Under the pieces are notes generated by a model. That model had not been told where the DNA came from and ran no database searches. It saw only the letters and a list, made by a program, of their open reading frames with translations. From the NCBI GenBank assembly GCA_017443345.1, contig JAFSNR010000043.1, positions 1 through 48,472 of the forward strand: 48,472 nucleotides of DNA, in the 5' to 3' direction. The position numbers and the translations under genes were made by a program. This document shows positions 7,801-39,055 of this stretch, piece after piece (position 1 is the first letter of the stretch; the number at the start of each line of letters is the position of its first letter). The stretch comes from Prevotella sp. (GTDB taxonomy: Bacteria > Bacteroidota > Bacteroidia > Bacteroidales > Bacteroidaceae).

Positions 7801-7856
7801 ATCTATCAACTATAAACCTTAAACTATAAACTCTAAACTATAAGCTCTAAACTATT
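7801..7856 (-). repeat. Heptad spacer between xylE and the receiver gene
   Basis: Eight 7-base units on the + strand (ATCTATC AACTATA AACCTTA AACTATA AACTCTA AACTATA AGCTCTA AACTATT). The array contains the stop codon of the porter gene (7852-7854) and ends 8 bases before the receiver start. On the coding strand nearly every unit contains TAG or TAA. Confidence 0.85.
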
Positions 7857-9321
7857 TCTTCCAGAGTTTGGTCATATCCTCCAGCGTCTTACCCTTGGTC
7901 TCGGGAACCAGGCGCCATACGAACAGAGCTGCTACGACACAGATGATGCCATAGAGACCATAAGTGAACCAGTGGCCGAAGTCGTCGCCCTCCGTCAGGT
8001 GCATGTTGAACATCGGCACGAACGATGAGCTGACGATGAAGTTAGAGATCCACTGGAAAGCTACGGCAATAGCTACAGCAGCACCACGAATGGTATTGGG
8101 GAAGATCTCAGCAATGAGTACCCAAGTGATGGGACCCCATGAGAACATGAACGAAGCCGAGTAAACCAACAGCGAGGCTGCTGTGATTAACGAGAGGCTG
8201 TCGTTACCAAAGGTGAGAGCGACACCAAAGGCTCCCAGAGCCATACCCAGCGAGCCACTGATGAGCAAGGGTTTGCGACCCAGCTTCTCCACCGTGAACA
8301 CAGCGACGAGTGTGAATGAGATATTGATAATACCCATGAACACCGTCAGCATCATCGGGTCGTCCATACCCATATCACCAAAGATACGCGGTGCATAGTA
8401 GAGGACGGCGTTGATACCCACTGCCTGCTGGAACACGGAGAGCATGATACCCACGAAGATGCAGAGTGCGCCATAGGTCATCAGCTTCTCGGTCTTCACC
8501 ACCATCGTGTCCTTGATATCCTGCAGGATCTGCTGAGCCTTCAACGAACCGTTGATTTTGGCAAGGATACCCTCAGCCTTCTTGTCCTGTCCGATGCTCA
8601 CGAGGTAACGCGGTGTTTCAGGAACGAAGCAGATGAGCAGGGCGAAGAGTCCTGCGGGCACAGCCTCACTACCGAACATATAGCGCCAGCCTGTGGTTAC
8701 CGTCCACTGGGCTGCGGGGTTGATGGCTGCAATGCCCTTACCCATCTCCTCTACGAGCGGCTGGATGTGGTCGCCGAGGATGAAGAAGTTCACGAAGTAA
8801 ACCACCAACTGACCGAAGATAATGGCAAACTGGTTCCACGACACGAGCATACCTCTTATATTAGAGGGAGCCACCTCACCGATATACATCGGGCAGATGG
8901 CAGAGGCCAGACCTACGCCGACACCACCGATCACACGGTAGATGTTAAACATGATCAGCAGTGAGTAGGTTGGCTGTCCGTACTCGAAGAACATGAACTC
9001 GGGATCCATCGAACCGAGGGCTGAGATGAAGAAGAGGAGACCTGCGATGATCAGCGACTTCTTACGACCCAGATTCGTGGCGAGATAGCCAGACAGGAAC
9101 GAACCGATGATACAGCCGATAAGGGCTGAAGCAGAGGTAAAACCATGCCAGGCATCCGTGTAGGCGAAATCCTTCGCTTCCATAAAGAAAGCCTGCAATC
9201 CTTTTTCTGCACCAGAGATGACTGCGGTGTCATATCCGAACAGCAGGCCACCGAGCACGGCGACCATCACAATTGAAATCAGGTAGGCTTTGCTACCTTG
9301 TTCTGTTTGTTGACTCATCAT
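7852..9321 (-). CDS. xylE: XylE-type sugar:H+ symporter (MFS sugar porter)
   Basis: 489 residues with twelve predicted membrane helices and the sugar-porter signatures. These are GGLLFGYDTAVISGA in helix 1, NLGRKKS after helix 2, the helix 5-6 segment with RGMLVSWNQFAIIFGQ, PETPRYLV, QQAVGINAVLYYAPRIF in helix 7, EKLGRKPLL, and the terminal VPETKGKTLEDM. These match E. coli XylE, which imports D-xylose with protons. The central loop is unusually long (residues about 185-205). It is divergent from the GH51 arabinofuranosidase, which suggests uptake of a pentose released by that enzyme, though glucose or arabinose cannot be excluded. The start is one of two adjacent ATGs (9321 or 9318). Confidence 0.88.
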   Translation of the reverse strand: MMSQQTEQGSKAYLISIVMVAVLGGLLFGYDTAVISGAEKGLQAFFMEAKDFAYTDAWHGFTSASALIGCIIGSFLSGYLATNLGRKKSLIIAGLLFFISALGSMDPEFMFFEYGQPTYSLLIMFNIYRVIGGVGVGLASAICPMYIGEVAPSNIRGMLVSWNQFAIIFGQLVVYFVNFFILGDHIQPLVEEMGKGIAAINPAAQWTVTTGWRYMFGSEAVPAGLFALLICFVPETPRYLVSIGQDKKAEGILAKINGSLKAQQILQDIKDTMVVKTEKLMTYGALCIFVGIMLSVFQQAVGINAVLYYAPRIFGDMGMDDPMMLTVFMGIINISFTLVAVFTVEKLGRKPLLISGSLGMALGAFGVALTFGNDSLSLITAASLLVYSASFMFSWGPITWVLIAEIFPNTIRGAAVAIAVAFQWISNFIVSSSFVPMFNMHLTEGDDFGHWFTYGLYGIICVVAALFVWRLVPETKGKTLEDMTKLWKK

Positions 9322-9333
9322 ATTTACCTTGTT

Positions 9334-9351
9334 ATTAATTCATCAATTAAT
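9334..9351 (-). promoter_or_regulatory. Inverted repeat in the xylE leader
   Basis: ATTAATT-CATC-AATTAAT, a perfect 7-base-pair inverted repeat in the leader, 13 bases before the start codon. It could be a small hairpin affecting translation or an operator. The sequence alone does not decide. Confidence 0.35.
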
Positions 9352-9374
9352 CCTGTTCTTGTCATTTATGAGTG

Positions 9375-9382
9375 CAAAATTA
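9375..9382 (-). promoter_or_regulatory. -7 box of xylE
   Basis: TAATTTTG on the minus strand, about 54 bases before the start at 9321. It is divergent from the GH51 promoter at 9468. Confidence 0.65.
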
Positions 9383-9435
9383 GTATATTTCTTCGAAACA
9401 ACCAAACATTTTGCCTCCATATCGACATTTTTTCA

Positions 9436-9447
9436 GAAGAATTCTTC
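9436..9447. promoter_or_regulatory. Perfect palindrome GAAGAATTCTTC between divergent sugar genes
   Basis: This 12-base palindrome is centred about 26 bases upstream of the GH51 -7 box, in the -33 zone, and also lies upstream of the xylE promoter. It is a candidate regulator site for both genes; a chance palindrome in A+T-rich DNA remains possible. Confidence 0.4.
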
Positions 9448-9467
9448 GCCATATCAGACTTTTTGCT

Positions 9468-9475
9468 TAATTTTG
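9468..9475 (+). promoter_or_regulatory. -7 box of the GH51-terC operon
   Basis: TAATTTTG, 28 bases before the ATG at 9504. Confidence 0.68.
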
Positions 9476-9503
9476 TACCCATTCAAACTAACAACAGACT
9501 AAT

Positions 9504-11519
9504 ATGAGAAAACTGACAACACTCTTGTTCCTGGCTGCAGGCCTCACGGCTTCAGCTCAGAATCACGTTCTGGACATCAACACCCAGAAGCTCGGGGCAC
9601 CCGTACAGCCTACGATGTACGGTATCTTTTTTGAGGATATCAACTACGCTGCCGATGGAGGACTCTATGCCGAGATGGTGAAGAACCGCTCATTTGAGTT
9701 CCCCCAGCACCTGATGGGTTGGCGCGCCTTCGGAAACTTCGACGTGAAGGACGAAGGAGGACCTTTCGAGCGTAATCCTCACTATGTACGCCTCAAATAC
9801 TCTGGCCATAGCGATAAGTTCACAGGCCTCGAGAATGAAGGTTTCTTCGGTATCGCCGTCAAGGAGGGAGCCACCTACCGTTTCTCCCTGTGGGCACGTT
9901 GTCCTGAAGGTGGCAAGTCCACCCTTGAGGTCAGCCTCGTGGATAACGACACGATGGGCGAAGACCAACGCTTCGTAAAAGTCAATGTCAATATTGAAGG
10001 CAAGGAGTGGAAGAAATACACTGCCGAGCTGAAGGCACCTCGCACCGAGCCGAAGGGTGCGCTCCGCATCTTCCTTGCCGGCGACAAGGTCACAACCGAT
10101 GTGGAGCATATCTCCCTCTTCCCCACCGATACGTGGAAAGGTCGTGAGAACGGCATGCGTAAGGATTTGGCTCAGGCACTCTTCGACATGCACCCTGGCG
10201 TGTTCCGCTTCCCGGGCGGTTGTATCGTAGAGGGAACGACCCTCGCCGACCGTTATAATTGGAAGAACACCGTAGGGCCTGTCGAGAACCGTCCCCTGAA
10301 CGAGAACCGCTGGCATTACACCTTCGGCTACCGTTTCTATCCCGACTACTTCCAGAGCTACGGCCTCGGCTTCTTCGAGTTCTTCCAACTCTGTGAGGAC
10401 TTCGGTTCTGAGGCACTGCCCGTCATCTCATGCGGACTCTCCTGCCAGTTCCAGAATCCCGATCCCACCAAGCCCGGCGTACATGCCGCCCTCGACGAGC
10501 TCGATCCCTATATCCAGGATGCCCTCGACCTTGTGGAGTTTGCCAATGGTCCTGTCGACAGCAAATGGGGTAAGGTACGCGCAGAGATGGGTCATCCCGA
10601 GCCCTTCAACCTGAAGTATCTCGGTGTGGGTAACGAGCAGTGGGACTACGATGAGGCTCATGGTGGCTATGGTCCCGTGTTTACCGAGCGTCTGAAGAAG
10701 TTCAGCGACGCCCTGCGCAAGAAATATCCCGAGCTGAAGCTCATTGGCACCACCGGCCCCAACTCCGAGGGTTGGGACTTCGACCTGCTGCAGCCTCGCA
10801 TGAAGGAGTTGAAGGTCGATCTCTACGACGAGCACTACTATCGCAATGAGGATTGGTTCCTCTCTCACGGTCTGCGCTACGACACTTACGATCGCAAGGG
10901 ACCAAAAGTCTTTGCTGGCGAATATGCTTGTCACGGTAAGAACAAGCACAAGTGGAACCACTATTATACCTCTTTATTAGAGGCAGCCCACATGACGGGT
11001 ATCGAGCGCAATGCCGATATCGTTCATATGGCTACCTATGCTCCCCTCTTCGCTCATGTCGAGGGCTGGCAGTGGCGCCCCGATGCCATCTGGTTCGACA
11101 ACCTCCGCTCATTCAAGTCTGTCAGCTATTATGTACAGCAGCTCTTTGCTATGAACAAGGGAACGAACGTACTCTCGCTCACGATGGATAAGAAACCCGT
11201 TGCCGGACAGGATGGTCAGGATGGTCTCTTCGCCTCCTCCGTCTTTGACAAGAACACGGGTGAGGTCATCGTCAAGGTTGTCAACACATCTGATGCTGCA
11301 CAGCCCATCACCTTGAACCTTCAGGGTATTAAGGCAGCCAGCGAGGCACAGACCATCACACTCTGTCACGACAGCATGGATGATGAGAATACACTCGACG
11401 AGCCCGAAAAGATTACCCCGCAGCCTGGCACCATCGCTGTTGCAGCTGGTAAGAAAGCTGCCACGATTTCCGACAAGCTCGCACCCAGATCATTCCGCAT
11501 CTACAAGATTAAAAAGTAA
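9504..11519 (+). CDS. Secreted alpha-L-arabinofuranosidase, GH51
   Basis: 671 residues with a signal peptide (cut near ASAQ, residue 19). The N-terminal part carries the GH51 start (MYGIFFEDINYAADGGLYAEM) and, at about 85-210, an inserted carbohydrate-binding-like beta domain (RFSLWARCPEGG..LEVSLVDND). The catalytic barrel follows, with RFPGGC (235-240), the acid/base GNEQ (E378) and the nucleophile GEY (E473), then a C-terminal beta domain. It should release arabinofuranose from arabinan, arabinoxylan or pectin side chains. The divergent XylE-type porter and the shared intergenic region suggest a common pentose stimulus. terC follows after 6 bases. Confidence 0.92.
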   Translation: MRKLTTLLFLAAGLTASAQNHVLDINTQKLGAPVQPTMYGIFFEDINYAADGGLYAEMVKNRSFEFPQHLMGWRAFGNFDVKDEGGPFERNPHYVRLKYSGHSDKFTGLENEGFFGIAVKEGATYRFSLWARCPEGGKSTLEVSLVDNDTMGEDQRFVKVNVNIEGKEWKKYTAELKAPRTEPKGALRIFLAGDKVTTDVEHISLFPTDTWKGRENGMRKDLAQALFDMHPGVFRFPGGCIVEGTTLADRYNWKNTVGPVENRPLNENRWHYTFGYRFYPDYFQSYGLGFFEFFQLCEDFGSEALPVISCGLSCQFQNPDPTKPGVHAALDELDPYIQDALDLVEFANGPVDSKWGKVRAEMGHPEPFNLKYLGVGNEQWDYDEAHGGYGPVFTERLKKFSDALRKKYPELKLIGTTGPNSEGWDFDLLQPRMKELKVDLYDEHYYRNEDWFLSHGLRYDTYDRKGPKVFAGEYACHGKNKHKWNHYYTSLLEAAHMTGIERNADIVHMATYAPLFAHVEGWQWRPDAIWFDNLRSFKSVSYYVQQLFAMNKGTNVLSLTMDKKPVAGQDGQDGLFASSVFDKNTGEVIVKVVNTSDAAQPITLNLQGIKAASEAQTITLCHDSMDDENTLDEPEKITPQPGTIAVAAGKKAATISDKLAPRSFRIYKIKK

Positions 11520-11525
11520 AGAAAA

Positions 11526-12467
11526 ATGATAAGTTTGCCCCTCTGGGTTTGGGTTTCGTTCTATGTATTGGTCTTCATCATGCTGCTGATCGACCTGAAG
11601 TCGTTTGGCAGGAAAGGTCAGCATGAGGTCAATGTGAGTGAAGCTCTGATCATGACGGCCGTCTGGGTTGGTGTATCGCTGCTCTTCTGTGTCGGTATCG
11701 AGTTCTTCTATCCAGGCGATTCCCACGAGAAGGCCATGGAATTTCTGGCAGGTTATCTCATCGAGAAGTCACTCTCGATGGATAACCTGTTTGTTTTCCT
11801 CATGCTCTTCTCCTTCTTCGGCATCCAACGCAAATACCAACACGAAGTGCTTTTCTGGGGTATCTTCGGTGCCTTGGTCCTGCGTAGTGTCTTCATCTTT
11901 GCTGGCACAGCCATCATCCAACGTTTCGAGTGGATCCTTGGGCTCTTTGGTGTTTTCCTGATTTATACCGGTATCAAGATGTTCGGCCATCAGGACGACG
12001 AAAGTGTCGACCCATCGAAGAATATCTTTGTCAAGCTCTTTAAACGTTTCTTCCCCGTCACCGATCAGATGCACGAGGATCGGTTTTTCATCGTCGAACA
12101 AGGTCGGCGCCTGGCTACCCCACTCTTCATTGCCTTGTTGGTCATCGAGACAACCGATGTGGCTTTTGCCGTCGACTCCATCCCCGCCGTCTTCTCTGTG
12201 TCGCGCGATCCGTTCATCGTGCTCACGTCAAATATTTTTGCCATCCTTGGTCTACGGGCACTCTATTTTGCTTTGGCTGCCGTAGCCAAGTATTTCACCT
12301 ATCTTAAATACGGATTAGGCATCATCCTCAGTTTCGTGGGTGTCAAGATGCTGCTCGAGGTCATCTGGGGAATCGAAGTACCGACACCCCTCTCCCTCGC
12401 GTTCATCTTCGGTGTGCTCGTCCTTTCGATGGGCCTCTCCGTCGTCATCTCGAAACGTAGAAGCTGA
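11526..12467 (+). CDS. TerC/Alx-family membrane protein
   Basis: 313 residues with about nine membrane helices. The family signatures are present: SLSMDNLFVF near 82-91 and ETTDVAFAVDSIPAVF near 208-223, with the conserved acidic residues, plus a cytoplasmic loop GHQDDESVDPSKN. TerC/Alx proteins are linked to manganese export and to metal supply of exported proteins, so it acts in the inner membrane. It starts 6 bases after the GH51 stop, so it is probably co-transcribed, though no functional link is evident. Its stop codon directly abuts the stop of the convergent BASS transporter. Confidence 0.9.
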   Translation: MISLPLWVWVSFYVLVFIMLLIDLKSFGRKGQHEVNVSEALIMTAVWVGVSLLFCVGIEFFYPGDSHEKAMEFLAGYLIEKSLSMDNLFVFLMLFSFFGIQRKYQHEVLFWGIFGALVLRSVFIFAGTAIIQRFEWILGLFGVFLIYTGIKMFGHQDDESVDPSKNIFVKLFKRFFPVTDQMHEDRFFIVEQGRRLATPLFIALLVIETTDVAFAVDSIPAVFSVSRDPFIVLTSNIFAILGLRALYFALAAVAKYFTYLKYGLGIILSFVGVKMLLEVIWGIEVPTPLSLAFIFGVLVLSMGLSVVISKRRS

Positions 12468-13421: not shown

Positions 13422-13431
13422 AATTACGCTG

Positions 13432-13439
13432 CAAAATTA
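13432..13439 (-). promoter_or_regulatory. -7 box of the BASS transporter gene
   Basis: TAATTTTG on the minus strand, only 10 bases before the ATG at 13421. A leader of a few bases at most is implied. Confidence 0.55.
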
Positions 13440-13482
13440 CAACTTTTTTGACGAAACTCTGCGGATTGTGTGGCTTTTTTAG

Positions 13483-13490
13483 TAACTTTG
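13483..13490 (+). promoter_or_regulatory. -7 box of the metF-holB-ricT-gldH operon
   Basis: TAACTTTG, 23 bases before the ATG at 13514. It rules out the longer open frame that begins at 13448, upstream of this box. Confidence 0.72.
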
Positions 13491-13513
13491 CAGCCAAATA
13501 TGCATTTTTCAGA

Positions 13514-14470: not shown

Positions 14471-14475
14471 TACAC

Positions 14476-14496
14476 AGTTTAGAGTTTAAAAATTTA
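14476..14496 (+). repeat. Short heptad spacer between metF and holB
   Basis: About three 7-base units, AGTTTAG AGTTTAA AAATTTA, with TAG or TAA in the first two. It lies between the metF stop (14468-14470) and the holB ATG (14500). It is the weakest of the set. Confidence 0.55.
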
Positions 14497-14499
14497 TAG

Positions 14500-15615
14500 A
14501 TGGGATTCGATAAAGTGATAGGACAGCAGGAGGTCAAGGAGCGGCTGATGCAGATGGTGAAGGAAGACCGTCTGCCGCACGCCATCATGCTCTGCGGACC
14601 ACAGGGCAGCGGCAAGAAGGCGCTGGCGCTGGCACTGGCCTGTACACTGCTCGATAATGGTACGACGAGTGCAAAGGCCATGCTACAGAAGCTGGAGCAT
14701 CCAGACCTGCACTTCACCTACCCCACCATCAAACTGCCCTCAATGGGTAGCGATCACATGCCCGTAAGCGACGATTTCGCCAAAGAGTGGCACGAACTTA
14801 TCACCGACACGCCCTACTTCACGATGGACGAGTGGATGCAGATGATGGATGGAGACAACCAGCAGGCCATCATCACCGCCGGCGAAAGTGACGAACTGGT
14901 CAGAAAACTGAGTCTGAAGTCGAGTCAGGGTGGCTATAAGGTGAGCTACATCTGGCTGCCTGAGCGCATGAATATCGCCTGTGCCAATAAACTGCTGAAG
15001 CTGATTGAAGAGCCCCCCCACCAGACCATTTTCATCATGGTGAGCGAGGAGCCCGACAAACTGTTAGAGACCATCCGCAGTCGCGTGCAGCGTATCGACA
15101 TCAAGAAAACTGATAACGAAGATATCCGACAGGCACTGATCGAGCGCAGAGGCATCGACGAAGAAGCCGCAAGACGCATCAGCCGTCTGGCCAACGGCAA
15201 TTGGCTGAAAGCTTTGGAGGAATTGCAGGTAGGCTCAGAGAATGAGTTGTTCCTCGACATGTATATCATGCTCATGCGACTGGCTTACCAACGTAAGCTG
15301 AAGGACCTGCGCAAATGGAGCGAGCAGATGAGTGCTATGGGACGTGAGAAGCAGAAACGTTGGCTGACCTATTTCCTACGCATGACAAGAGAGAACTTCA
15401 TGTATAACTTCCAACAGGAGGAGCTCTGCTACATGACTCAGGAAGAGGAGAAATTCGCCAAGAACTTCGCCAGATTCGTCAACGAGAAGAATATCCTGCC
15501 CATCAGCGACCTGGCTAATCGCGCCATCCGCGACATCGGACAGAACGCCAACGCGAAGATTGTGTTCTACGACTTCGCCCTGCAAATGATCGTTTTACTA
15601 TTGCAAAAAGACTAG
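14500..15615 (+). CDS. holB: DNA polymerase III delta' subunit
   Basis: 371 residues. The start GFDKVIGQQEVKERL is the usual clamp-loader opening. A Walker-A-like loop GPQGSGKKA is at 31-39. NKLLKLIEEPP and IRSRVQRIDI are the delta' sensor and SRC-type region, with SRC altered to SRV. A helical C-terminal domain binds the clamp-loader collar. It works with the DnaX product encoded at 5619-7430. A long helical insert (about 65-130) separates Walker A from the rest, as in Bacteroidetes homologues. ricT follows across a 9-base repeat, matching the holB-ricT (yaaT) pairing known from Firmicutes. Confidence 0.9.
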   Translation: MGFDKVIGQQEVKERLMQMVKEDRLPHAIMLCGPQGSGKKALALALACTLLDNGTTSAKAMLQKLEHPDLHFTYPTIKLPSMGSDHMPVSDDFAKEWHELITDTPYFTMDEWMQMMDGDNQQAIITAGESDELVRKLSLKSSQGGYKVSYIWLPERMNIACANKLLKLIEEPPHQTIFIMVSEEPDKLLETIRSRVQRIDIKKTDNEDIRQALIERRGIDEEAARRISRLANGNWLKALEELQVGSENELFLDMYIMLMRLAYQRKLKDLRKWSEQMSAMGREKQKRWLTYFLRMTRENFMYNFQQEELCYMTQEEEKFAKNFARFVNEKNILPISDLANRAIRDIGQNANAKIVFYDFALQMIVLLLQKD

Positions 15616-15646
15616 AAATACTAGAATCACTAGAAATACTAGATAT
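15611..15646 (+). repeat. Nonamer spacer exactly joining holB and ricT
   Basis: Four 9-base units: ACTAGAAAT ACTAGAATC ACTAGAAAT ACTAGATAT. The array starts in the last sense codon of holB, includes its TAG stop, and ends at the base before the ricT ATG. The TAG triplets recur every 9 bases, all in the holB frame. Confidence 0.88.
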
Positions 15647-16804
15647 ATGACAGAACAAACAAAAGAACATATTGTGAAAGTGGGCTGCGACAGAGGACTC
15701 TGTCATCAGGCTGTGGGTCGACAGGACAGACAGTTGAATACCTATGACTGGCTGGCTGACGTACCTGGCAACATGGAGACCACAGACCTCGTAGAGGTAC
15801 AGTTCAAGCACACCCGCAAAGGATACTACCACAACGTGAACAACCTCGAACTGAAAAAGGGAGACGTAGTGGCTGTAGAGGCTAGTCCTGGTCACGACAT
15901 AGGTGTTGTGACGCTGACAGGCAGACTCGTGAACCTCCAAGTGAAGAAGGCCAACCTGAAATCGGCTGATGACATCAAACGCATCTACCGCATTGCCCGT
16001 GAGACCGACTTGCAGAAATGTCGGGAAGCAAAGGCCCGTGAGCATAGTACCATGATCGAGAGCCGTAAGATAGCCAAAGGTCTGGGACTGGACATGAAAA
16101 TCGGTGACGTGGAGTATCAGGGCGACGGTAATAAGGCCATCTTCTACTACATCGCCGATGAGCGTGTGGACTTCCGCCAGCTGATCAAAGACCTGGCTGC
16201 GGCCTTCCACGTGAGAATCGAGATGAAACAAATCGGGGCACGACAGGAAGCTGGACGCATCGGCGGAACAGGTCCCTGCGGACGTGAACTCTGCTGTGCC
16301 ACCTGGATGAAGAACTTCTCGAGCGTCAGCACCAATGCCGCCCGATTCCAGGACATCTCACTCAACCCCCAGAAACTGGCGGGTATGTGTGCCAAGCTGA
16401 AATGCTGTCTGAACTACGAGGTGGACGACTACGTGGAGGCTGGTAAGCGACTGCCTGGCAAGGACGTGATCCTGCAGACACAGGATGCCGACTACTATTT
16501 CTTCAAGAGTGACATCCTCGCCGGACTCGTGACCTATTCGACGGATAAGAATCTGGCAGCAAATCTCGAGACCATCACTGCCGAGCGCGCCAAGGCTATC
16601 ATCGAGATGAACCGCAACGGCGAAAAGCCTCTCTCTCTCGAGGAAGACAGCGCCAAGAAGACGGAGACGAAGCAGCATGTGGACCTCGCAGGAGGCGACA
16701 TCAGCCGATTCGACAAGTCCAAGAAGAAGAAAAAGAAGAAAAAGCCCAGCAACCGCCAGGACAACAACAAGGGAAATGTCCATAAAGGTCATGCAGCGGA
16801 ATAA
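15647..16804 (+). CDS. ricT: RicT/PSP1-domain protein
   Basis: 385 residues. The PSP1 core spans about 50-290. Cysteine clusters CDRGLC (near 14-19), GPCGRELCC (near 207-215) and CAKLKCC (near 247-253) fit iron-sulfur ligation as described for the Ric (Y) complex of Bacillus, where RicT, RicA and RicF assist RNase Y-dependent RNA maturation. RicA and RicF homologues are not in the window. The C-terminus has a run of lysines (DKSKKKKKKKKP) and a polar tail, likely to bind nucleic acid or membranes. It follows holB as in many bacteria, and its end overlaps the start of gldH. The role in Bacteroidetes is not established. Confidence 0.87.
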   Translation: MTEQTKEHIVKVGCDRGLCHQAVGRQDRQLNTYDWLADVPGNMETTDLVEVQFKHTRKGYYHNVNNLELKKGDVVAVEASPGHDIGVVTLTGRLVNLQVKKANLKSADDIKRIYRIARETDLQKCREAKAREHSTMIESRKIAKGLGLDMKIGDVEYQGDGNKAIFYYIADERVDFRQLIKDLAAAFHVRIEMKQIGARQEAGRIGGTGPCGRELCCATWMKNFSSVSTNAARFQDISLNPQKLAGMCAKLKCCLNYEVDDYVEAGKRLPGKDVILQTQDADYYFFKSDILAGLVTYSTDKNLAANLETITAERAKAIIEMNRNGEKPLSLEEDSAKKTETKQHVDLAGGDISRFDKSKKKKKKKKPSNRQDNNKGNVHKGHAAE

Positions 16805-17270: not shown

Positions 17271-17278
17271 GCAGGGAA

Positions 17279-21964: not shown

Positions 21965-22006
21965 AAACTGTAAACCGTAAACTGTAAACCGTAAACAGTA
22001 AACAGT
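21965..22006 (-). repeat. Heptad spacer between mreB and mreC
   Basis: Six 7-base units on the + strand: AAACTGT AAACCGT AAACTGT AAACCGT AAACAGT AAACAGT, running into the mreB stop codon (22006-22008) and ending 8 bases before the mreC start. It is the most regular array in the window and the only inter-gene one without a stop triplet in each unit on the coding strand. Confidence 0.9.
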
Positions 22007-23031: not shown

Positions 23032-23066
23032 CTATAAACTATCAACTATAAACTAACAATTATCAC
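23032..23066 (-). repeat. Heptad spacer between the IMP cyclohydrolase gene and mreB
   Basis: Five 7-base units on + (CTATAAA CTATCAA CTATAAA CTAACAA TTATCAC). On the coding strand each unit ends in TAG or TAA. The array includes the TGA stop of the upstream gene and ends 3 bases before the mreB ATG. Confidence 0.82.
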
Positions 23067-23656
23067 TTCTCAAACCACGCGTTGATGGCAGTATCATAGT
23101 GTGAGCTCACACCAAAGGCACGTGTAGCCAGCATGCGGCGCTGAGCTTTCGTCGTAACGGCACCCTGCTGCATCAGGATATCGAACAGCACACCATATTC
23201 GGCCTTAGAAGGCACAATCACGACATCATTGAAATTCTTCGCTGCGGCACGGATGAGCGAGATGCCGCCGATATCAATCTTCTCGATGATATCTTCCTCA
23301 GAGGCACCACTGGCCACAGTCTGCTCAAAGGGATAAAGGTCTACGATCACCAGATCAATCTCTGGGATCTCGTACTGCTTCATCTGCTCAATGTCGCCCT
23401 CGTTCTCACGACGGCCCAGGATTCCTCCGAACACCTTCGGATGCAGGGTCTTCACACGTCCGCCAAGGATCGAGGGATAAGTGGTTACATCCTCTACCTT
23501 CTGGCACTCATAACCCAGAGACTCAATAAACTGCTGTGTACCACCAGTTGACAGGAACTTCACACCTTCCTCATTCAGTTTCTTGAGTAAATCGTCCAGT
23601 CCGTCCTTGTGGAATACAGACACCAAAGCGGTCTTAATCTTCTTAGTTTCAGCCAT
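23063..23656 (-). CDS. Stand-alone IMP cyclohydrolase (N-terminal half of PurH)
   Basis: 197 residues from the ATG at 23656; a TTG two codons earlier is less likely. It matches the MGS-like cyclohydrolase domain of PurH: KIKTALVSVFHKDGL, FLSTGGTQQFIESLG, TTYPSILGGRVKTLHPKVFGG, VDLYPFEQTVASGAS, EKIDIGGISLIRAAAKNF, and the end SSHYDTAI..WFEK, where the linker to the transformylase domain would begin. The AICAR transformylase half (about 300 residues) is absent, and downstream DNA goes straight to mreB, so this is a single-domain enzyme for the last step of IMP synthesis. The missing half must be encoded elsewhere. It has its own promoter at 23697-23704 and leads the cell-shape operon. Confidence 0.88.
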   Translation of the reverse strand: MAETKKIKTALVSVFHKDGLDDLLKKLNEEGVKFLSTGGTQQFIESLGYECQKVEDVTTYPSILGGRVKTLHPKVFGGILGRRENEGDIEQMKQYEIPEIDLVIVDLYPFEQTVASGASEEDIIEKIDIGGISLIRAAAKNFNDVVIVPSKAEYGVLFDILMQQGAVTTKAQRRMLATRAFGVSSHYDTAINAWFEK

Positions 23657-23696
23657 TTCCAAATTCTTATAACGTTATAAATTCTATTTCAGCGTG

Positions 23697-32688: not shown

Positions 32689-32697
32689 ATTACGAAT

Positions 32698-32739
32698 TTC
32701 TTATTTCTTAATTCTTAACTCTTAATTCTTAATTCATCA
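32698..32739 (-). repeat. Heptad spacer between susC and susD
   Basis: Six 7-base units on + (TTCTTAT TTCTTAA TTCTTAA CTCTTAA TTCTTAA TTCATCA). The last unit contains the SusC stop codon. On the coding strand five of the units carry TAA. The array ends 9 bases before the SusD ATG. Confidence 0.88.
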
Positions 32740-35700
32740 GAAGTCCACCTGCAGACCAACAGTGAAGCCACGGTTAAAGAATGTTGCACCTGTGTCGAGG
32801 TCCATGAAGTCAACTGAAGAGTAGAGCATACCGAGGTTCTTGCCCTGGATATAGATTTTGGCGTTGCTCAGACCGATACCCAGCTTGCTGAGCAGCTGCG
32901 TGTCGAAGTTGTAACCCAGAGAGAGGTTGCGGATCTTGACGAACGAGGCTTTCTTGAAGCCCAGCAATCCTGCATAGGCATCACCGCCTGCCTGGCTGTA
33001 GACTGGCTTCTGCCACTCTGCACCAGTATTAGAAGGTGTCCAGTAGTCGATCTCACGCTGCTGGTACATACCGAGCTGACCCTCACCACCAGTACTGATC
33101 ATATAGCCGAAGCGGCCCATCAGTTCGAGGTTAAGCTCAAGTCCCTTCCATGTGAAGGTGTTGGTCCAACCTGCGGTCAGACGTGGATTCTTGTTACCCA
33201 GGATCACACGGTCGTCGGCGTCGATCTTATAGTCACCATTCTGGTCAACGGGTCTTACGCTACCAACGGTGAACTTGGCACCGTTCTCGTTGAACTTAGC
33301 CATCTCTGCGGCGTCGCTCTCCTGCCAGAGGCCATTGGCCTCGTAGCCGTAGTGTACAGCGATCGACTCTCCGATGAACCAAGCGTTGTTGATATCATCC
33401 TCCTTACCGTTAGACAGCTCTACGATCTCATCCTTCTGCAAGGCGAAGTTCAGGTTCGAGTTCCAGATGAAGTCCCTCGTCAGAACAGGAATCACGTTCA
33501 GGGTAACCTCGAGACCCTTGTTCTTGGTCTGACCCACATTGGCCATCATCGAGGGATAACCCGAGAGTGAAGGCACGCTCATGGCGAGCAGCAGGTCCTT
33601 CGTCTTCGACATATACAGATCGATGGTACCACCGATACGTCCTCTCAGGAAGCTGAAGTCGATACCGAAGTTCCACTGTGTGGTCTTCTCCCAACCCAGG
33701 TTCTTGTTAGGCATAGCGTTCGAACCTGATGTATAGTAAGGCTCGTTGGTCACGAAAATCTGAGAGTTACCGGTGCTGAAAGGCATCCAGTAAGAGCTGA
33801 TGACACCCAGTGTTCCGTAAGGCGAAACGGCTGCGTTACCAGTAACACCGACACCCAGACGGAGCTTCAGCTGATCGATCCAAGAGACGTTCTTCATGAA
33901 CTCTTCCTGCTCCATGCGCCAACCCAGGGCCATTGAGGGGAAGAAGTCCCACTTATTACCCTCTGCGAGTACCGATGAACCGTCCCAGCGGGCAGAAGCA
34001 GTAAGCAGGTAGCGATCCTTGAACGAGTAGTTGATACGGGCCATGTATGAACTCAGGGCATACTCCGAGAGACCTGTACCCATCGAAGCCTGATACTGTG
34101 AATCGGTGATGTCGATGGCACCCATGTTGTTCCAGAGGAATGAGGGGATGGTCACACCGACCTCACTCATCGAGCTGCTCTCGGTATTGCTCTTCGAAGC
34201 ACTCTGCAACAGAGTCACACCGACGTTGTGAGCACCGAAAGTCCTATTGTAAAGCAGCATATTGTCGAGTGTCCAGGCAAAGTGGCGCTCATCGTTACGA
34301 CGGGCGTAGTTCTTACTGCCTGCACGGGTGGCCGAACTGCTGTCGAGGAAGTTACCGATACGATAATAGCGGAAGTCGGGACCGAACTGGGTCTTCCACT
34401 GGAGACCCTGCAGAGGCTCCCAGATCTTACCGAAGTCAATCTGTGCATAGAAGCTACCGAGGGCACGGAAAGTCTCACGGTTATCATTCGACTTGTTCCA
34501 CTCTTCTATAATAGTATAGGTGTTGGTCGTAGAACCACCAGGCATGGTGATGATCTCGCCATTCTCGTCGTATGGCAGGGTATAGCGGAGCATCGCCTTG
34601 GCTGCACCGTAGATATCAGTAGGACCAGAACTTGAAGACTGTCCTGTACGCGAATAACCATATTTCTGCACGCCATATGATGCGTTGACCGAACCACCGG
34701 CCTTGAACCAGGGCGTTCCCTGTACGTCGGCTGATGCATTGAGGTTATAGCGCTCATAGCTCTGTCCCTTCTGGGTTCCCTTGTTGTTCAGATATCCGAA
34801 TGACACATAACCTGCCAGGTTCTTAGAACCACCGCGCACGCTGACGTTGTGCTCCTGGGTGACACCAGTCTGCTTCACGAACTCCGTCCAGTCGGTATCC
34901 GTCACCTTTGAACCGTCCCATGAGCCGCCGCTCCAACCCTTCATCACGTTGTTGAGGGCTGTCTCGTCGCCTGAGAAGAAAGCCTTGTCCTGCTCCTGTG
35001 TAGGCTGGTCACCAGGGGTATATTTATCAGGGGCTGAGTTGTAGTAAGCCCAACGACGCCAGGTGATATAGTCGCTGGCATTCATGGCCGGACTCTTGTC
35101 GACGATCTTCTCGAAGGTAAATGCACCCGAGTAGCTCAGCTGCATCTTGCCCTCCTGACCGCGCTTGGTCGTAACGAGTACGACACCGTTGGCACCACGG
35201 CTACCGTAGATAGCGGTAGAAGAGGCGTCCTTCAGAATGTCGATGCTCTCAATATCCTTAGGATTCAGCGTCTCGATACCACCTGCCTGGAGGGGCACAC
35301 CGTCAACGACGTAGAGCGGACCCTGTCCAGCAGAGATTGAACGCTGTCCACGGATGGCAATGCTTCCTACGGTACCTGGGCGCTCACTGGTGGTGATGTC
35401 CACACCGGCAGCTTTTCCCTGCAGGGCCTCGAAGGCGTTGGAAACGGGCTTCGTGTTCAACTCCTTCTCACCCACACGGGTCAAGGCTCCTGTCACGTCG
35501 CTCTTGCGCTGGACACCGTAACCTACGACTACCACTTCGTCGAGCAGCTGACGGTCTTCTTCGAGCGTCACGTTCAACTGACTCTTGCCTGCGACGGCAA
35601 TCGTCTGATTACGATAGCCTACGTAGCTGATCACGAGGCTTGCTTTCTCAGAAACATTCTGGAGCGTGAATTTACCGTCGAAATCGGTAATCGTTCCTGT

Positions 35701-35886
35701 AGAAGTTCCCTTTACCATGACACTGGCGCCGATGACTGCCTCACCAGCCGCGTCAACAACAGTTCCCGACACCTGTTTCTGGGCCCATGCACCCGAAGTG
35801 CAGAGAGCCACCAGAGCCAAGAACATCAGTCGTCGAAGTACATTGGTACCCGACAACAGCTTGTCTGTAACTTGATTTTTTCTCAT
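32737..35886 (-). CDS. SusC/RagA-family TonB-dependent outer-membrane transporter
   Basis: 1049 residues. Signal peptide, an N-terminal carboxypeptidase-D-like domain (KQVSGTVVDAAGEAVIGASVMVKG), the SusC signature DEVVVVGYGVQRKSDVTGA before the plug (about 115-135), plug motifs GVDITTSERPGTVGSIAIRGQRS and STAIYGSRGANGVVLVTTKRG, then the 22-strand barrel ending in an aromatic (GLQVDF). It imports oligosaccharide across the outer membrane with its SusD partner, powered by TonB. The promoter is at 35933-35940 with a palindromic operator candidate just upstream. No HTCS or SusR-type regulator lies in the window. Confidence 0.96.
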   Translation of the reverse strand: MRKNQVTDKLLSGTNVLRRLMFLALVALCTSGAWAQKQVSGTVVDAAGEAVIGASVMVKGTSTGTITDFDGKFTLQNVSEKASLVISYVGYRNQTIAVAGKSQLNVTLEEDRQLLDEVVVVGYGVQRKSDVTGALTRVGEKELNTKPVSNAFEALQGKAAGVDITTSERPGTVGSIAIRGQRSISAGQGPLYVVDGVPLQAGGIETLNPKDIESIDILKDASSTAIYGSRGANGVVLVTTKRGQEGKMQLSYSGAFTFEKIVDKSPAMNASDYITWRRWAYYNSAPDKYTPGDQPTQEQDKAFFSGDETALNNVMKGWSGGSWDGSKVTDTDWTEFVKQTGVTQEHNVSVRGGSKNLAGYVSFGYLNNKGTQKGQSYERYNLNASADVQGTPWFKAGGSVNASYGVQKYGYSRTGQSSSSGPTDIYGAAKAMLRYTLPYDENGEIITMPGGSTTNTYTIIEEWNKSNDNRETFRALGSFYAQIDFGKIWEPLQGLQWKTQFGPDFRYYRIGNFLDSSSATRAGSKNYARRNDERHFAWTLDNMLLYNRTFGAHNVGVTLLQSASKSNTESSSMSEVGVTIPSFLWNNMGAIDITDSQYQASMGTGLSEYALSSYMARINYSFKDRYLLTASARWDGSSVLAEGNKWDFFPSMALGWRMEQEEFMKNVSWIDQLKLRLGVGVTGNAAVSPYGTLGVISSYWMPFSTGNSQIFVTNEPYYTSGSNAMPNKNLGWEKTTQWNFGIDFSFLRGRIGGTIDLYMSKTKDLLLAMSVPSLSGYPSMMANVGQTKNKGLEVTLNVIPVLTRDFIWNSNLNFALQKDEIVELSNGKEDDINNAWFIGESIAVHYGYEANGLWQESDAAEMAKFNENGAKFTVGSVRPVDQNGDYKIDADDRVILGNKNPRLTAGWTNTFTWKGLELNLELMGRFGYMISTGGEGQLGMYQQREIDYWTPSNTGAEWQKPVYSQAGGDAYAGLLGFKKASFVKIRNLSLGYNFDTQLLSKLGIGLSNAKIYIQGKNLGMLYSSVDFMDLDTGATFFNRGFTVGLQVDF

Positions 35887-35932
35887 ACAGTTAAATAGTT
35901 AGGTATAAAAAGTTGTTTAATGATTTCGAGGG

Positions 35933-35940
35933 CAAAGTTA
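35933..35940 (-). promoter_or_regulatory. -7 box of the susC-susD operon
   Basis: TAACTTTG on the minus strand, 46 bases before the ATG at 35886. A TTTG at 35962-35965 (minus strand) could serve as -33 with a 21-base spacer. Confidence 0.72.
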
Positions 35941-35950
35941 GTGTTTTTCC

Positions 35951-35962
35951 GCAAACGTTTAC
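35951..35962. promoter_or_regulatory. LacI/PurR-like palindrome in the susC promoter
   Basis: GCAAACGTTTAC, a near-perfect palindrome centred on CG, as in LacI-family operators (the E. coli PurR site has the core GCAAACGTTT). It sits between the presumed -33 and -7 elements of susC, where bound protein would block RNA polymerase. This is an inference from sequence form only. Confidence 0.45.
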
Positions 35963-36000
35963 AAAAATTATCAAAAATCAAAGATGGAATAGCAAAATTT

Positions 36001-36028
36001 AGGGGTCGATTTGTTAAAACCGACCCCT
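36001..36028 (-). terminator. Terminator of asnA
   Basis: Stem AGGGGTCG / CGACCCCT with a 12-base loop that can extend by TTT/AAA. Followed on the minus strand by TAAATTTTG, a weak T tract. It starts 21 bases after the asnA stop. Confidence 0.7.
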
Positions 36029-36049
36029 GACATACCAAAAAACAATGAT

Positions 36050-37087
36050 TTAAATCAAGTTCATGCCCAGCTGCTTGCAGCGCTGTCGCATATCGTCAGG
36101 CCAGATCGAAGCCTGAATCTCACCGATATGTCCCTTGTGCAACAGCACCATACAGAGTCGGCTCTGTCCGATACCGCCACCGATACTCAGGGGCAGCTTG
36201 TCGCTGAGCAACTGTTGGTGGAAGTAGAGTTGCTCGCGCTCCTCCTTGTGGGCCAGTTTCAACTGTCTGAGCAGACTTTCTTTGTTCACGCGGATACCCA
36301 TCGATGAAAGCTCGAAACTGCGTCCCAGCACGGGATACCAGATCAGGATATCACCATTGAGTCCCTGTCGTCCGTCCTCGGCGATGGTCGACCAGTCATC
36401 GTAGTCAGGTGCACGTCCGTCGTGCTTCTCTCCGTTCGACAACTCACCACCTATACCTATTATAAATACGGCACCATATTGCTCACAGATGGCATCCTCA
36501 CGCTCCTTCGGCGTCTTGTCGGGATACATCTGCAACAGTTCCTCAGCGTGAATGAAATGGATCTTCTCGGGCAGAAAGGGCTTGATCTGGGGATAAGTCT
36601 CACAGGTCAGGTACTCCGTTCTGCGGATGGCGGCATAGATACGCTCCACAACATTCTTCAGGAATGCCAGCGTACGGTCCTCCTCGCGGATGACGGCCTC
36701 CCAGTCCCACTGGTCCACATAAAGCGAGTGAAGATTGTCGAGCTCCTCGTCGGCACGGATGGCGTTCATGTCGGTATAGATGCCATAGCCAGGTTCTATG
36801 TTGTACTCTGCCAGCGAGAGTCGCTTCCACTTGGCGAGCGAGTGTACCACCTCAGCCTTGGCATCGCCCAAGTCCTTAATCGGGAAGGTCACGGCACGCT
36901 CCACACCGTTCAGGTCGTCGTTGATACCCAGCCCCTGCAACACGAAGAGAGGGGCAGTCACACGACGCAGGCGAAGCTCCGTGGAAAGGTTCTGCTGGAA
37001 GAATTCCTTAATCAGTTTGATACCCTGTTCCGTCTGCTTCATGTCTAGCAGCGGTTCATACATCACAGGTTGAATTACTTGTCCCAT
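36050..37087 (-). CDS. asnA: Aspartate-ammonia ligase (asparagine synthetase A)
   Basis: 345 residues from the ATG at 37087 (MGQVIQPVMYEPLL); the longer open frame to 37171 crosses the promoter. It makes asparagine from aspartate, ammonia and ATP and is related to class II tRNA synthetases. Signatures are LRRVTAPLFV, GINDDLNGVERAVTFPIKD, VVHSLAKWKRLSL, GIYTDMNAIRADEELDNLHSLYVDQWDWE, AVFIIGIGGELSNGEKHDGRAPDYDDW, LNGDILIWYPVLGRSFELSSMGIRV and LPLSIGGGIGQSRL. The length is normal. It is monocistronic, with terminator at 36001-36028, divergent from the tRNA-Arg operon. Confidence 0.96.
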   Translation of the reverse strand: MGQVIQPVMYEPLLDMKQTEQGIKLIKEFFQQNLSTELRLRRVTAPLFVLQGLGINDDLNGVERAVTFPIKDLGDAKAEVVHSLAKWKRLSLAEYNIEPGYGIYTDMNAIRADEELDNLHSLYVDQWDWEAVIREEDRTLAFLKNVVERIYAAIRRTEYLTCETYPQIKPFLPEKIHFIHAEELLQMYPDKTPKEREDAICEQYGAVFIIGIGGELSNGEKHDGRAPDYDDWSTIAEDGRQGLNGDILIWYPVLGRSFELSSMGIRVNKESLLRQLKLAHKEEREQLYFHQQLLSDKLPLSIGGGIGQSRLCMVLLHKGHIGEIQASIWPDDMRQRCKQLGMNLI

Positions 37088-37117
37088 TTTGAGTTTATGA
37101 TTTATTATTTGCGGCTG

Positions 37118-37125
37118 CAAAGGTA
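37118..37125 (-). promoter_or_regulatory. -7 box of asnA
   Basis: TACCTTTG on the minus strand, 30 bases before the ATG at 37087. Confidence 0.7.
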
Positions 37126-37205
37126 CTAAATAAATATCAAAGTGCAAGCAAAATTCGATATTTTTTTGCAAAAATGTTATAAATCATTGATTTTGGCTAA
37201 CATTT

Positions 37206-37260
37206 TGCGCATTACGCGCACCAAATTCTTAGCTCGGCTTTGCCGCTTTGCTCTGCAAAG
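37206..37260. repeat. Cluster of three small hairpins (REP-like)
   Basis: Three hairpins in 55 bases: TGCGC-ATTAC-GCGCA (37206-37220), CGGC-TTT-GCCG (37235-37245) and CTTTGC-TCT-GCAAAG (37246-37260), the last two directly abutting. They run straight into the ATTCTTM heptad array. The cluster lies between the divergent asnA and tRNA promoters, so it is probably not transcribed from either. It looks like a palindromic repeat element. Confidence 0.6.
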
Positions 37261-37261
37261 A

Positions 37262-37296
37262 ATTCTTAATTCTTCATTCTTCATTCTTCATTCTTA
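37262..37296. repeat. Heptad array upstream of the tRNA-Arg promoter
   Basis: Five 7-base units: ATTCTTA ATTCTTC ATTCTTC ATTCTTC ATTCTTA, followed by a decayed ATTTATT. Unlike the other arrays it is not between a stop and a start; it lies 12 bases upstream of the tRNA -7 box. Confidence 0.82.
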
Positions 37297-37307
37297 ATTT
37301 ATTTCAG

Positions 37308-37315
37308 TACTTTTG
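37308..37315 (+). promoter_or_regulatory. -7 box of the tRNA-Arg operon
   Basis: TACTTTTG, ending 15 bases before the first base of the tRNA. No other promoter is visible before the sugar genes downstream. Confidence 0.68.
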
Positions 37316-37330
37316 CACTCGAAAATCGTT

Positions 37331-37402
37331 GCACCCGTAGTTTAAAGGATAGAATAACGGATTCCGGTTCCGTTGGTCACGGTTCGATTCCGTGCGGGTG
37401 TA
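37331..37402 (+). tRNA. tRNA-Arg (anticodon CCG)
   Basis: 72 bases fold as a cloverleaf. The acceptor stem is GCACCCG / CGGGTGT with discriminator A. The anticodon stem ACGGA / TCCGT encloses the loop TTCCGGT, giving anticodon CCG (reads CGG). The T arm is CACGG-TTCGATT-CCGTG. CCA is not encoded. The next coding sequence begins 10-20 bases after the tRNA end. Confidence 0.95.
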
Positions 37403-37421
37403 CTACCATAAGATGCGAAAC

Positions 37422-39020
37422 ATGAAGATATTAGCAGTTATTCCCGCAAGAGCCGGTTCGAAGGGTATCCCCAATAAGAACATCAGGCTTGTGGCTGGGC
37501 GTCCCCTCGTGTATTATGCCATCAAGAATGCCCAGATGTCTAAGTACATCACCGATGTCGTGGTGACCACCGACTCACCCGAAGTGAGGATTATCGCCAC
37601 ACAGATGGGCGTAGGCCATAAGTGGAGAGACGAGCGGCTCTGTGGCGATGCAGTGACCCTCGATGCCGTGGTGGCCGATGCCATCCCCGAAGGCTCGTGG
37701 GACTATATCGTCACCATGCAGCCCACCTCGCCCACACTGAAGGTCGAGACCCTCGACAGCGCCATCAAGTACGCTATCGGCAACGATCTCGACACCCTCA
37801 TATCCGCCATCAATGCCCCTCATCTCTCCTGGGGTGTGAAGGACGGCCACAAGGTGCCCAACTACGAGAAGCGCCTGAACCGTCAGTACCTGCCCCCCTG
37901 TTATATGGAGACAGGAGCATTCGTCATCTCCAAGCGTAGTGTGGTGACACCCGAGACGCGCATCGGTCAGAAAGTCGATGTCTTCGAGGTGCCCGAGAGC
38001 GAGGCGCAGGATGTCGATACCTTCTCCGACCTGCAGAGCGTGGCCAAGGCCCTCAGCGAACCCAAGGTGGCCATCTACGTCAATGGTAACAACAAACGAG
38101 GCATCGGACACATCTACCGTGCCCTCGAGATTGCCGACGAGTTCTTCGTGAAGCCAGATATCTTCTACGACAAGAACCAGACCGATCCCAAGGTGTTCGG
38201 ACATACCGCCCACACGCTGAAGGCCGTCGACGGCATTGCCGAACTCTTCGACATCTGCCGTCGCGAGCAGTACACTATCTTCATCAACGACATCCTCACC
38301 ACCTCCATCGACTATATGATCGGACTGCGCTCCGTGCTGCCGAAGGCGAAGCTCATCAACTTCGAGGACGACGGCGAGGGCATCCAGAAGGCCGACCTCG
38401 TCATCAACGCCCTCTACGAGGACGACGAGTTCCCCCAGATCCATGCAGGCGAGGAGTATTACATCTGTGGCAAGACCTTCATGTTCTACGAGCCCATCAA
38501 GATCAAAGACCAGGTGGAGCGTGTCTTCATCTCCTTCGGTGGTGCCGATCCCCAGAACTACACGGATCGTCTGCTCAACATCGTCACGAAGCCCGAGTAC
38601 AAGGACATGCACTTCGTCGTGGCCCTCGGACGTGCCAAGCACAATGTCGAGGAGCTGCTCGAGTTTAACCGCTACGACAACCTCGATGTTTATTACGACG
38701 TGGCCAATATGCCCGAACTGATGTCGAGCTGCGACGTGGCCGTTACCTCGAAGGGTCGCACGAGTTTCGAACTAGCCCTGCTGGGTGTTCCTTCTATCGC
38801 CATGGCTCAGAACCACCGCGAAGAGAAGCACGGCTTCGTCTGCAATGAGAACGGCTTCTCCTACATCGGTCTCAACCCCACCGACGAGATTATCGAGGCC
38901 ACCCTTCGCATGTACCTCCGCCTCTCGAAGGAGAGCCGTCAGCACTATCAGGACATGCTCCTGAGCCACGACCTCCGCAGCGGCCGCAAAAAGGTCATGA
39001 ACCTCATCAATAATCTCTAA
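37422..39020 (+). CDS. CMP-nonulosonate synthetase fused to a PseG-like UDP-sugar hydrolase
   Basis: 532 residues from the ATG at 37422 (MKILAVIPARAGSKG); ATG 37413 is possible, and the open frame further upstream runs into the tRNA. Residues 1-215 form a NeuA/PseF-type cytidylyltransferase: PARAGSKGIPNKN, VVVTTDSPEV, TMQPTSPTL, METGAFVISK and a DVDTFSDL end. Residues 218-532 resemble PseG: YVNGNNKRGIGHIYRALEIA, NFEDDGEG, VFISFGGADPQNYTDRLLNIV, SKGRTSFELALLGVPSIAMA. One domain would release a sugar from UDP and the other would activate the finished nonulosonic acid as CMP-sugar. The synthase gene follows after a heptad spacer. The exact sugar (pseudaminic-, legionaminic- or sialic-like) is not known. 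Confidence 0.85.
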   Translation: MKILAVIPARAGSKGIPNKNIRLVAGRPLVYYAIKNAQMSKYITDVVVTTDSPEVRIIATQMGVGHKWRDERLCGDAVTLDAVVADAIPEGSWDYIVTMQPTSPTLKVETLDSAIKYAIGNDLDTLISAINAPHLSWGVKDGHKVPNYEKRLNRQYLPPCYMETGAFVISKRSVVTPETRIGQKVDVFEVPESEAQDVDTFSDLQSVAKALSEPKVAIYVNGNNKRGIGHIYRALEIADEFFVKPDIFYDKNQTDPKVFGHTAHTLKAVDGIAELFDICRREQYTIFINDILTTSIDYMIGLRSVLPKAKLINFEDDGEGIQKADLVINALYEDDEFPQIHAGEEYYICGKTFMFYEPIKIKDQVERVFISFGGADPQNYTDRLLNIVTKPEYKDMHFVVALGRAKHNVEELLEFNRYDNLDVYYDVANMPELMSSCDVAVTSKGRTSFELALLGVPSIAMAQNHREEKHGFVCNENGFSYIGLNPTDEIIEATLRMYLRLSKESRQHYQDMLLSHDLRSGRKKVMNLINNL

Positions 39021-39055
39021 CCCCTCTCTAACCCCTAAGCACTAACCCCTAACCC
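39017..39055 (+). repeat. Heptad spacer between the CMP-sugar synthetase and NeuB-family genes
   Basis: Units CTAACCC, CTCT, CTAACCC, CTAAGCA, CTAACCC, CTAACCC. The period is 7 with one 4-base slip. The first unit contains the TAA stop of the upstream gene (39018-39020). The beginning AATCTCTAACCCC and the end (CCAAAATA) match the flanks of the two in-frame elements at 2173-2223 and 3090-3140. Confidence 0.85.

Follow-up and report, generated by a model that had tools for sequence, protein, structure and literature searches.

A 48,472-nt stretch of a Prevotella sp. genome (assembly GCA_017443345.1, contig JAFSNR010000043.1, positions 1 to 48,472; this whole stretch is called the window below) raises the question of where the short tandem arrays that fill its narrow gaps between co-directional genes come from. 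The answer that we consider likely is that the arrays belong to small foldback elements laid out like the intervening sequence (IVS) of 23S rRNA, and to shortened forms of these elements, including solo arrays. The gene associated with the arrays encodes a product of about 125 aa from PF05635, the 23S rRNA-intervening-sequence protein family, which is a four-helix bundle (FHB). We hold the existence of the element firmly, and its role as the source of solo arrays less so.

Arrays were counted in an own-genome sample, consisting of the window and 20 further stretches of the source genome G000 (339,298 of 4,162,725 bases, the genome being in 204 contigs), and in a pooled set of the own genome plus 80 relatives' loci (253,511 gap bases and 1,548,855 coding bases), with gene calls and gene starts from a purpose-written script. 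Many of the nearest named relatives of G000 are rumen assemblies. The gaps of the own-genome sample contained 26 arrays (period 7, 13; period 8, 8; period 11, 3; periods 9 and 10, one each), compared to zero in 20 dinucleotide shuffles of the same gaps. This comparison with shuffled sequence, proposed in the original prediction, confirms that the gap arrays are real, and intergenic arrays exist beyond chance in this Prevotella genome. Coding DNA of the same sample contained 5 period-7 arrays, and over-threshold arrays occupied 12 of its 45 co-directional gaps of 25–70 nt. Pooled gaps contained 88, 38, 20, 3 and 14 arrays of period 7, 8, 9, 10 and 11, respectively, while the roughly six-fold larger pooled coding DNA contained 19, 0, 24, 0 and 0, giving a gap excess at periods 7, 8, 9 and 11; coding arrays were otherwise mainly of periods 6, 9 and 12.

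The genome G000 encodes two PF05635 genes scoring 125 and 86 bits (cut-off 33.8), both of which sit between complementary arrays, with units of 7 nt and 8 nt; a third gene, below the cut-off at 31.8 bits, has arrays on one side only. Of 120 Prevotella genomes, 104 had a match to the family at E ≤ 0.001, and in 95 the match was above the Pfam cut-off. We examined the flanks of 93 FHB genes from 89 loci, which were chosen by PF05635 match alone and taken best-scoring first rather than at random; this count leaves out the two lead elements (L067 and L151), the L105 copy of the C146 element of G000 and a spurious open reading frame (ORF) in L220, and L157 has no intact ORF. Flanks were scored as complementary at ≥16 in Prevotella and other Bacteroidota and at ≥14 for plasmid loci, and control genes of 300–700 nt were drawn from mreB-region loci, the G000 sample and ten-genome samples. 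The results showed complementary flanks in 54/93 FHB genes compared to 2/398 control genes (Fisher P = 8e-43 when compared with the initial 378 controls), following a first round with 13/32 FHB genes, lead case L151 included, against 2/378 controls.

The arrays around FHB genes are polarised. On the left, G exceeded C in 79 arrays, C exceeded G in 2, and 2 were equal; on the right, C exceeded G in 60, with 4 the other way and 1 equal. These adjacent arrays had a median of 4.0 units (quartiles 3.3 and 4.6, with a detection floor of about 2.4 units), and pairing of the arms, as judged by eye, often continued inwards, past the arrays, into a motif close to GACAAATG or GAATAC. Both neighbours lay on the FHB strand in all 79 cases in which both were called, compared to 272/398 control genes; taken singly, the upstream neighbour was on the same strand in 86/87 cases and the downstream one in 83/84. 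These neighbours are protein-coding gene calls, i.e., the Prevotella elements are not inside a 23S rRNA gene. Median distances were 7 nt from the upstream stop codon to the beginning of the left array (55 cases) and 15 nt from the end of the right array to the following start codon (46 cases). The RNA of one element had a predicted fold with paired arms (z −6.26). These results demonstrate the layout and polarity of the element.

In co-directional gaps shorter than 100 nt, most arrays began ≤5 nt past the upstream stop and ended about 10 nt or less ahead of the following start. Gap-filling arrays, which were C-poor (0.06) and A-rich (0.44) on the sense strand, had more G than C in 39/49 cases (C over G in 8, equal in 2), sharing the polarity of the left arm of the FHB element. 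Arrays close only to a stop codon had more G than C on the sense strand in 18/23 cases, whereas those close only to a start codon had more C than G in 16/25 (the reverse in 7, equality in 2). Where a gap held at least two arrays, a complementary inverted pair was present in 12/23 cases, against 1.9% of random pairs; in two of them, the lead cases L067 and L151, the pair encloses a small PF05635 gene, and without these two a complementary pair was present in 10/21. The shared origin suggested by the original prediction is supported, although inverted pairing, strand polarity and the associated FHB gene had gone unnoticed there. As a separate observation, a divergent gap at L089:911-3146 holds three 11-nt arrays, two of them complementary, and the FHB profile gave no match in L089.

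We next consider the unit sequences. Across 76 elements, FHB proteins that were more alike tended to share their unit sequence (Mantel r 0.49, against at most 0.14 in 1000 permutations), and there was a weak correlation between FHB identity and having the same period (r 0.19, permutations up to 0.14). One FHB cluster had period 7 in 24/26 elements and a second had period 8 in 11/12, while a third, of 35 elements, ranged from period 7 to 12 with a mostly GGAGTTA/GAAGTTA-like core. These data demonstrate coupling between FHB subfamily and repeat unit, and the fact that each subfamily has its own unit sequence and period suggests, as a hypothesis, that the FHB protein, whose solved relative is a homopentamer, may recognise the unit. 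The protein is under strong purifying selection: the ratio of nonsynonymous to synonymous substitution (dN/dS) had a median of 0.045 and a maximum of 0.1 in 16 of 39 pairs, synonymous sites being saturated in the remainder.

Unit families also recur across the genome. The pattern GTTTANAGTTTANAG had 235 matches in G000 and its reversed control 0, GGTKAGNGGTKAGNG had 146 against 0 (both counts include overlapping matches inside one array), and CTATAAACTATAAA had 38 against 1. The view in the original prediction that the period is conserved rather than the sequence therefore fails genome-wide; period alone as the conserved trait is ruled out, and we dropped that reading because unit families recur. 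Its fixed 7-base period holds insofar as 7 is the commonest, but periods from 7 to 12 occur and track the FHB subfamily. A unit motif with one free base was not general either, with 509 variable columns compared to 478.6 (distinct states) or 593.7 (cells) expected; among stricter arrays, only those of period 7 with two events were slightly concentrated (35 against 42.6). For several solo families, the genus also contains a copy that carries FHB: GTTTATA (L225), GTTTAGA (L230), GGTTAGG (L151), GTAAAAAG (L324) and AATGAAG (L338). Across five genomes, the mean fraction of solo arrays sharing a 9-mer with FHB arms was 0.48 for arms of the own genome and 0.16 for those of other genomes, with G044 supplying just two arrays and G000 running the opposite way.

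The junction occupied by the C146 element demonstrates empty and filled sites. Among 20 loci, 2 were filled (the same junction in G000 and G025), 7 were empty, with 4–10 nt from stop to ATG (G018, G090, G013, G022, G051, G099 and G032), 1 had another array (G020, an 8-mer array of an unrelated family in a 67-nt gap), 1 had a 31-nt A-rich stretch, and 9 had a different downstream gene. An empty site was also sought for L067, a Hallella element, but none of the other loci contained both of its neighbours. FHB pairs lacked any homologous neighbour in 12/20 cases at 80–90% identity, 24/53 at 70–80% and 0/4 above 90%, counts in which short loci may conceal neighbours. Separately, G117 carries two 99.5% identical copies of a 1,070-nt FHB-bearing segment with differing flanks (L197 659–1728 and L340 679–1748), a duplicate that says little on mobility because its segment ends are not arrays.

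At the genome level, FHB copy number correlated with array matches across the 120 genomes (Spearman 0.32, P = 3.5e-4), and the median number of array matches was 0 in FHB-free genomes (n = 16) compared to 14 in genomes with five or more FHB matches (n = 29). In 80-kb samples, arrays per 10 kb of gap numbered 0, 0, 0, 0.8 and 2.1 in FHB-free genomes and 0, 2.1, 9.3, 11.8 and 12.6 in FHB-rich ones. Outside Prevotella, 13 of 30 Bacteroidota loci had an array. Plasmid FHB matches were mostly cyanobacterial; 16 of 32 records with a match were taken, and setting aside Azospirillum and Gemmatirosa left 14 loci (13 cyanobacterial, 1 Riemerella), of which 12 had an array and 9 had complementary flanks, compared to 1/33 control genes. 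Their units include AGTAGGG, GGGAACA, TTAGCTT and AGTCAGG. The Gemmatirosa locus, with 8-nt arrays, had a flank score of 28, and the Azospirillum locus, without an over-threshold array, scored 21. In two of these plasmids, 7/85 gaps had an array, one of which adjoins an FHB gene. Three cyanobacterial plasmid FHB genes lie inside CRISPR cas clusters (L371, L372 and L377), in the orders cas6-FHB-cas4 and cas10-FHB-cmr3.

Taken as a whole, a full element consists of a G-rich tandem array (about four units of 7–12 nt), an FHB gene and a complementary C-rich array, and in Prevotella it is sense-oriented, beginning a few nucleotides past one stop codon and ending shortly before the next start codon. 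As in the IVS, base pairing between the two arms of the transcript would form a long stem that has the FHB gene as its loop, and by likeness to the IVS RNase III may process the transcript in the cell. Shortened forms would include gene-free hairpins and, as here in the window, solo arrays occupying short co-directional gaps; the solo arrays of the window would be element arms rather than slippage products. The element presumably spreads, and the window arrays may derive from such elements.

In the window itself, all seven places named in the original prediction bear an array at, or a few bases off, the positions given, although the one at 14476–14496 is weak and an eighth, at 37261–37299, was missing from that list. 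Each array was compared with FHB arms and with 15 column-permuted controls. The minus-strand array at 7801–7856, a solo array with the sense unit GTTTATA/GTTTAGA (7 nt), spans the whole gap from the stop of a sugar transporter family gene (7852–9321, minus strand) to the ATG of the gene at 7436–7792 (minus strand); its best match was 14 nt (L225), with a permuted mean of 10.8 and maximum of 16. The weak plus-strand array at 14476–14496, two to three units of GTTTAGA type and absent from the Tandem Repeats Finder list, lies inside the 29 nt that separate an MTHFR-family gene from a DNA polymerase III delta'-like gene and matches the arm of FHB element L230 over 13 nt (mean 10.0, maximum 13). 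The plus-strand array at 15607–15647 (ACTAGAAAT), in the gap preceding a PSP1-domain gene, has period 9, as had been predicted for 15611–15646, and its 8-nt match is below the permuted mean of 8.5.

The remaining arrays lie around mreB and further downstream. The mreB/mreC gap holds a minus-strand GTTTACN array (7 nt; 21965–22006) with a 10-nt match against a mean of 10.1. A minus-strand GTTTATA array (7 nt; 23032–23066), which matches FHB element L225 over 12 nt (mean 10.1, maximum 13), separates mreB from a gene that combines an MGS-like domain with part of an AICARFT domain; in relatives, this gap shows other unit families or none, depending on the species. That gene (23063–23662) looks like a short PurH-type gene, because, besides its MGS-like domain, it covers just positions 1 to 58 of the 311-position AICARFT/IMPCHase model. 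Between a TonB-plug gene, which is probably SusC-like, and a SusD-family gene lies a minus-strand AATTAAG array (7 nt; 32698–32739), whose 11-nt match is below the mean of 12.3. The plus-strand CATTCTT array (7 nt; 37261–37299) occupies a divergent gap upstream of tRNA-Arg(ccg) (37331–37403) and has a 15-nt match to an FHB-element arm in genome G059 (mean 11.2, maximum 15). Finally, the plus-strand CTAACCC array (7 nt, C-rich arm type; 39014–39056), between a cytidylyltransferase gene and a NeuB-family gene, has a 17-nt reverse-complement match to an arm of its own genome's FHB element, G000:C146 (mean 12.7, maximum 17). Elsewhere in the window, period-7 arrays of GGTTAGG and GGTGAGG type at 2177–2208 and 3099–3122 lie within the minus-strand ORFs 1696–2529 and 2526–3881, which are apparent coding sequence, and a 228-nt repeat of about 2.2 copies at 47971–48472 overlaps the minus-strand ORF 46678–48450 and is probably a repeated protein domain.

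Several observations weigh against the foldback-element explanation. For three of the eight window arrays, the match to FHB arms is at or below the column-permuted mean, and none exceeds the best of its 15 permuted draws; solo arrays of G000 match its own two strong FHB elements at 0.24, below G098 (0.41) and G028 (0.38). Complementary flanks at the cut-off were lacking in 39/93 Prevotella FHB genes and were present in just 9/30 Bacteroidota loci outside the genus, and 3/14 plasmid FHB genes are antisense to both neighbours. The copy-number correlation is modest and uncorrected for phylogeny or completeness, and GC content differs between the five FHB-free (0.34–0.44) and the five FHB-rich (0.45–0.55) sampled genomes. 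At least one array match occurred in 7/16 FHB-free genomes; G018, without a PF05635 match owing to an assembly gap or true loss, has 85 + 76 matches (161) of two array patterns, while G117, with 6 FHB matches, has zero arrays in its 80-kb sample. The net charge of FHB is near zero (median 0). No gene except FHB was seen between the arms of the G000 elements, and no target-site duplication was established, since the C146 junctions have diverged too far for one to be delimited. In 28/70 stop-proximal arrays, compared to 3.7 expected, the repeat runs in phase with the host stop codon, which points to some local duplication.

This last observation favours polymerase slippage, by which 7–9-nt units would arise locally by stop codons and persist where frameshifts are harmless, with FHB as a separate passenger; slippage has been put forward before as the origin of 7-nt repeats (Mrazek 2007, in the summary given by PMC4679880), and the periods of coding arrays, mainly 6, 9 and 12 with 19 of period 7, agree with it. 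We nevertheless consider it unlikely, as slippage yields direct repeats rather than complementary inverted pairs and leaves unexplained both the excess of GTTTANAGTTTANAG over its reversed control and the tie between unit sequence and FHB. Selection for translation or RNA signals, with arrays serving as C-poor unstructured leaders or three-frame stops, would account for their base composition, for arrays that stop a few nucleotides short of start codons, and for the 0.92 stops per unit on the sense strand compared to 0.37 on the antisense strand in stop-proximal arrays. Column-permuted units came out nearly equal (0.82 stops per unit; closed frames 2.20 versus 2.40), so that sense stop content is largely compositional and three-frame stop arrays were rejected; many orthologous gaps have no array, and such signals predict neither inverted pairs nor FHB genes, which makes this account very improbable.

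A regulatory device would be compatible with the foldback element: FHB would be a host RNA-binding ring, for which TRAP provides a likeness, that steers operons through the arrays, its genes not being mobile. The purifying selection on FHB, the subfamily-specific unit and period, the roughly four units per array and the solved relative 2GSC all fit, the solved FHB relative being a homopentamer (Lin 2006, as quoted in PMC4990558). Against it, empty and filled sites vary within the genus and many closely related FHB pairs have no homologous neighbour in common, and we consider this reading unlikely. Foldback elements with FHB genes and their shortened forms remain our preferred explanation.

The elements resemble several known systems. 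In REP/REPIN sequences with RAYT, a repeat-flanked gene likewise coexists with repeats dispersed in gaps elsewhere, but FHB is no transposase and the Prevotella arms are tandem arrays. Eukaryotic foldback transposons have long inverted ends built of short tandem units, whereas the elements here are bacterial, a few hundred nucleotides long and carry an FHB gene. With transposons and miniature inverted-repeat transposable elements (MITEs), they share inverted terminal repeats and empty versus filled sites at one junction. Cyanobacterial STRR-type repeats are also 7-nt tandem units in gaps, while Prevotella has periods 8–11 as well; this parallel, drawn in the original prediction, is apt, given that PF05635 genes on cyanobacterial plasmids have heptamer-array flanks as in Prevotella.

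A close likeness is the 23S rRNA IVS of Coxiella, which its source describes as selfish: it has a terminal stem of 28 bp, is excised by RNase III and encodes an S23p to which no function has been assigned (PMC4990558). Two or three tandem heptamers (GACAGAT), variable in number between strains, precede the S23p start, with an RNase III site at the first repeat (PMC4990558). Shared features are an S23p-family ORF, a length of a few hundred nucleotides, complementary ends and sporadic distribution; in contrast, the Prevotella element lies between protein genes, both of its arms are tandem arrays, its FHB is under strong purifying selection and array-only forms occur in high copy number. The GGGNATC heptamers of Xanthomonas and Nostoc also have 7-nt units, a four-unit preference and positions between aligned ORFs, with G-rich repeats on the sense strand downstream of stops but on the antisense strand upstream of starts and with inverted pairs in many Xanthomonas cases, but are read as G-quadruplex sequences (PMC4692102). 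TAACTGA repeats of Beggiatoaceae, some cyanobacteria and Bacteroidetes form intergenic heptamer arrays near start codons in scattered phyla, but with one unit and a single inverted case (PMC4679880), and the BrickBuilt MITE of Porphyromonas gingivalis, also intergenic and in Bacteroidota, has a tandem repeat in an inverted-repeat element, but with a 23-nt unit between small inverted ends (PMC4596501). The terms 'four helix' and 'S23' occur nowhere in the text of these last three sources. Among the matches listed in the open-licence literature, outside which many papers lie, we did not meet the link between S23p and heptamers generalised to intergenic elements, solo arrays or unit coupling. Heptamers before S23p in one rRNA IVS are already in print.

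More broadly, we tentatively propose, as a possibility that we do not yet favour, that S23/IVP FHB proteins are ring-shaped, sequence-specific repeat binders, with one unit per subunit, of widespread operon hairpin elements of which the rRNA IVS is one branch; these elements would be the source of the cyanobacterial, xanthomonad, Beggiatoaceae and Bacteroidota heptamers and would spread via a process on the transcript or the post-stop junction. This proposal links two questions, the function of the S23/IVS protein family and the origin of heptameric intergenic repeats in several bacterial groups, and predicts a cognate repeat for each FHB protein and elements processed out of operon mRNA. If it is true, many Prevotella and cyanobacterial operons, including cas operons, would hold small overlooked intergenic insertions.

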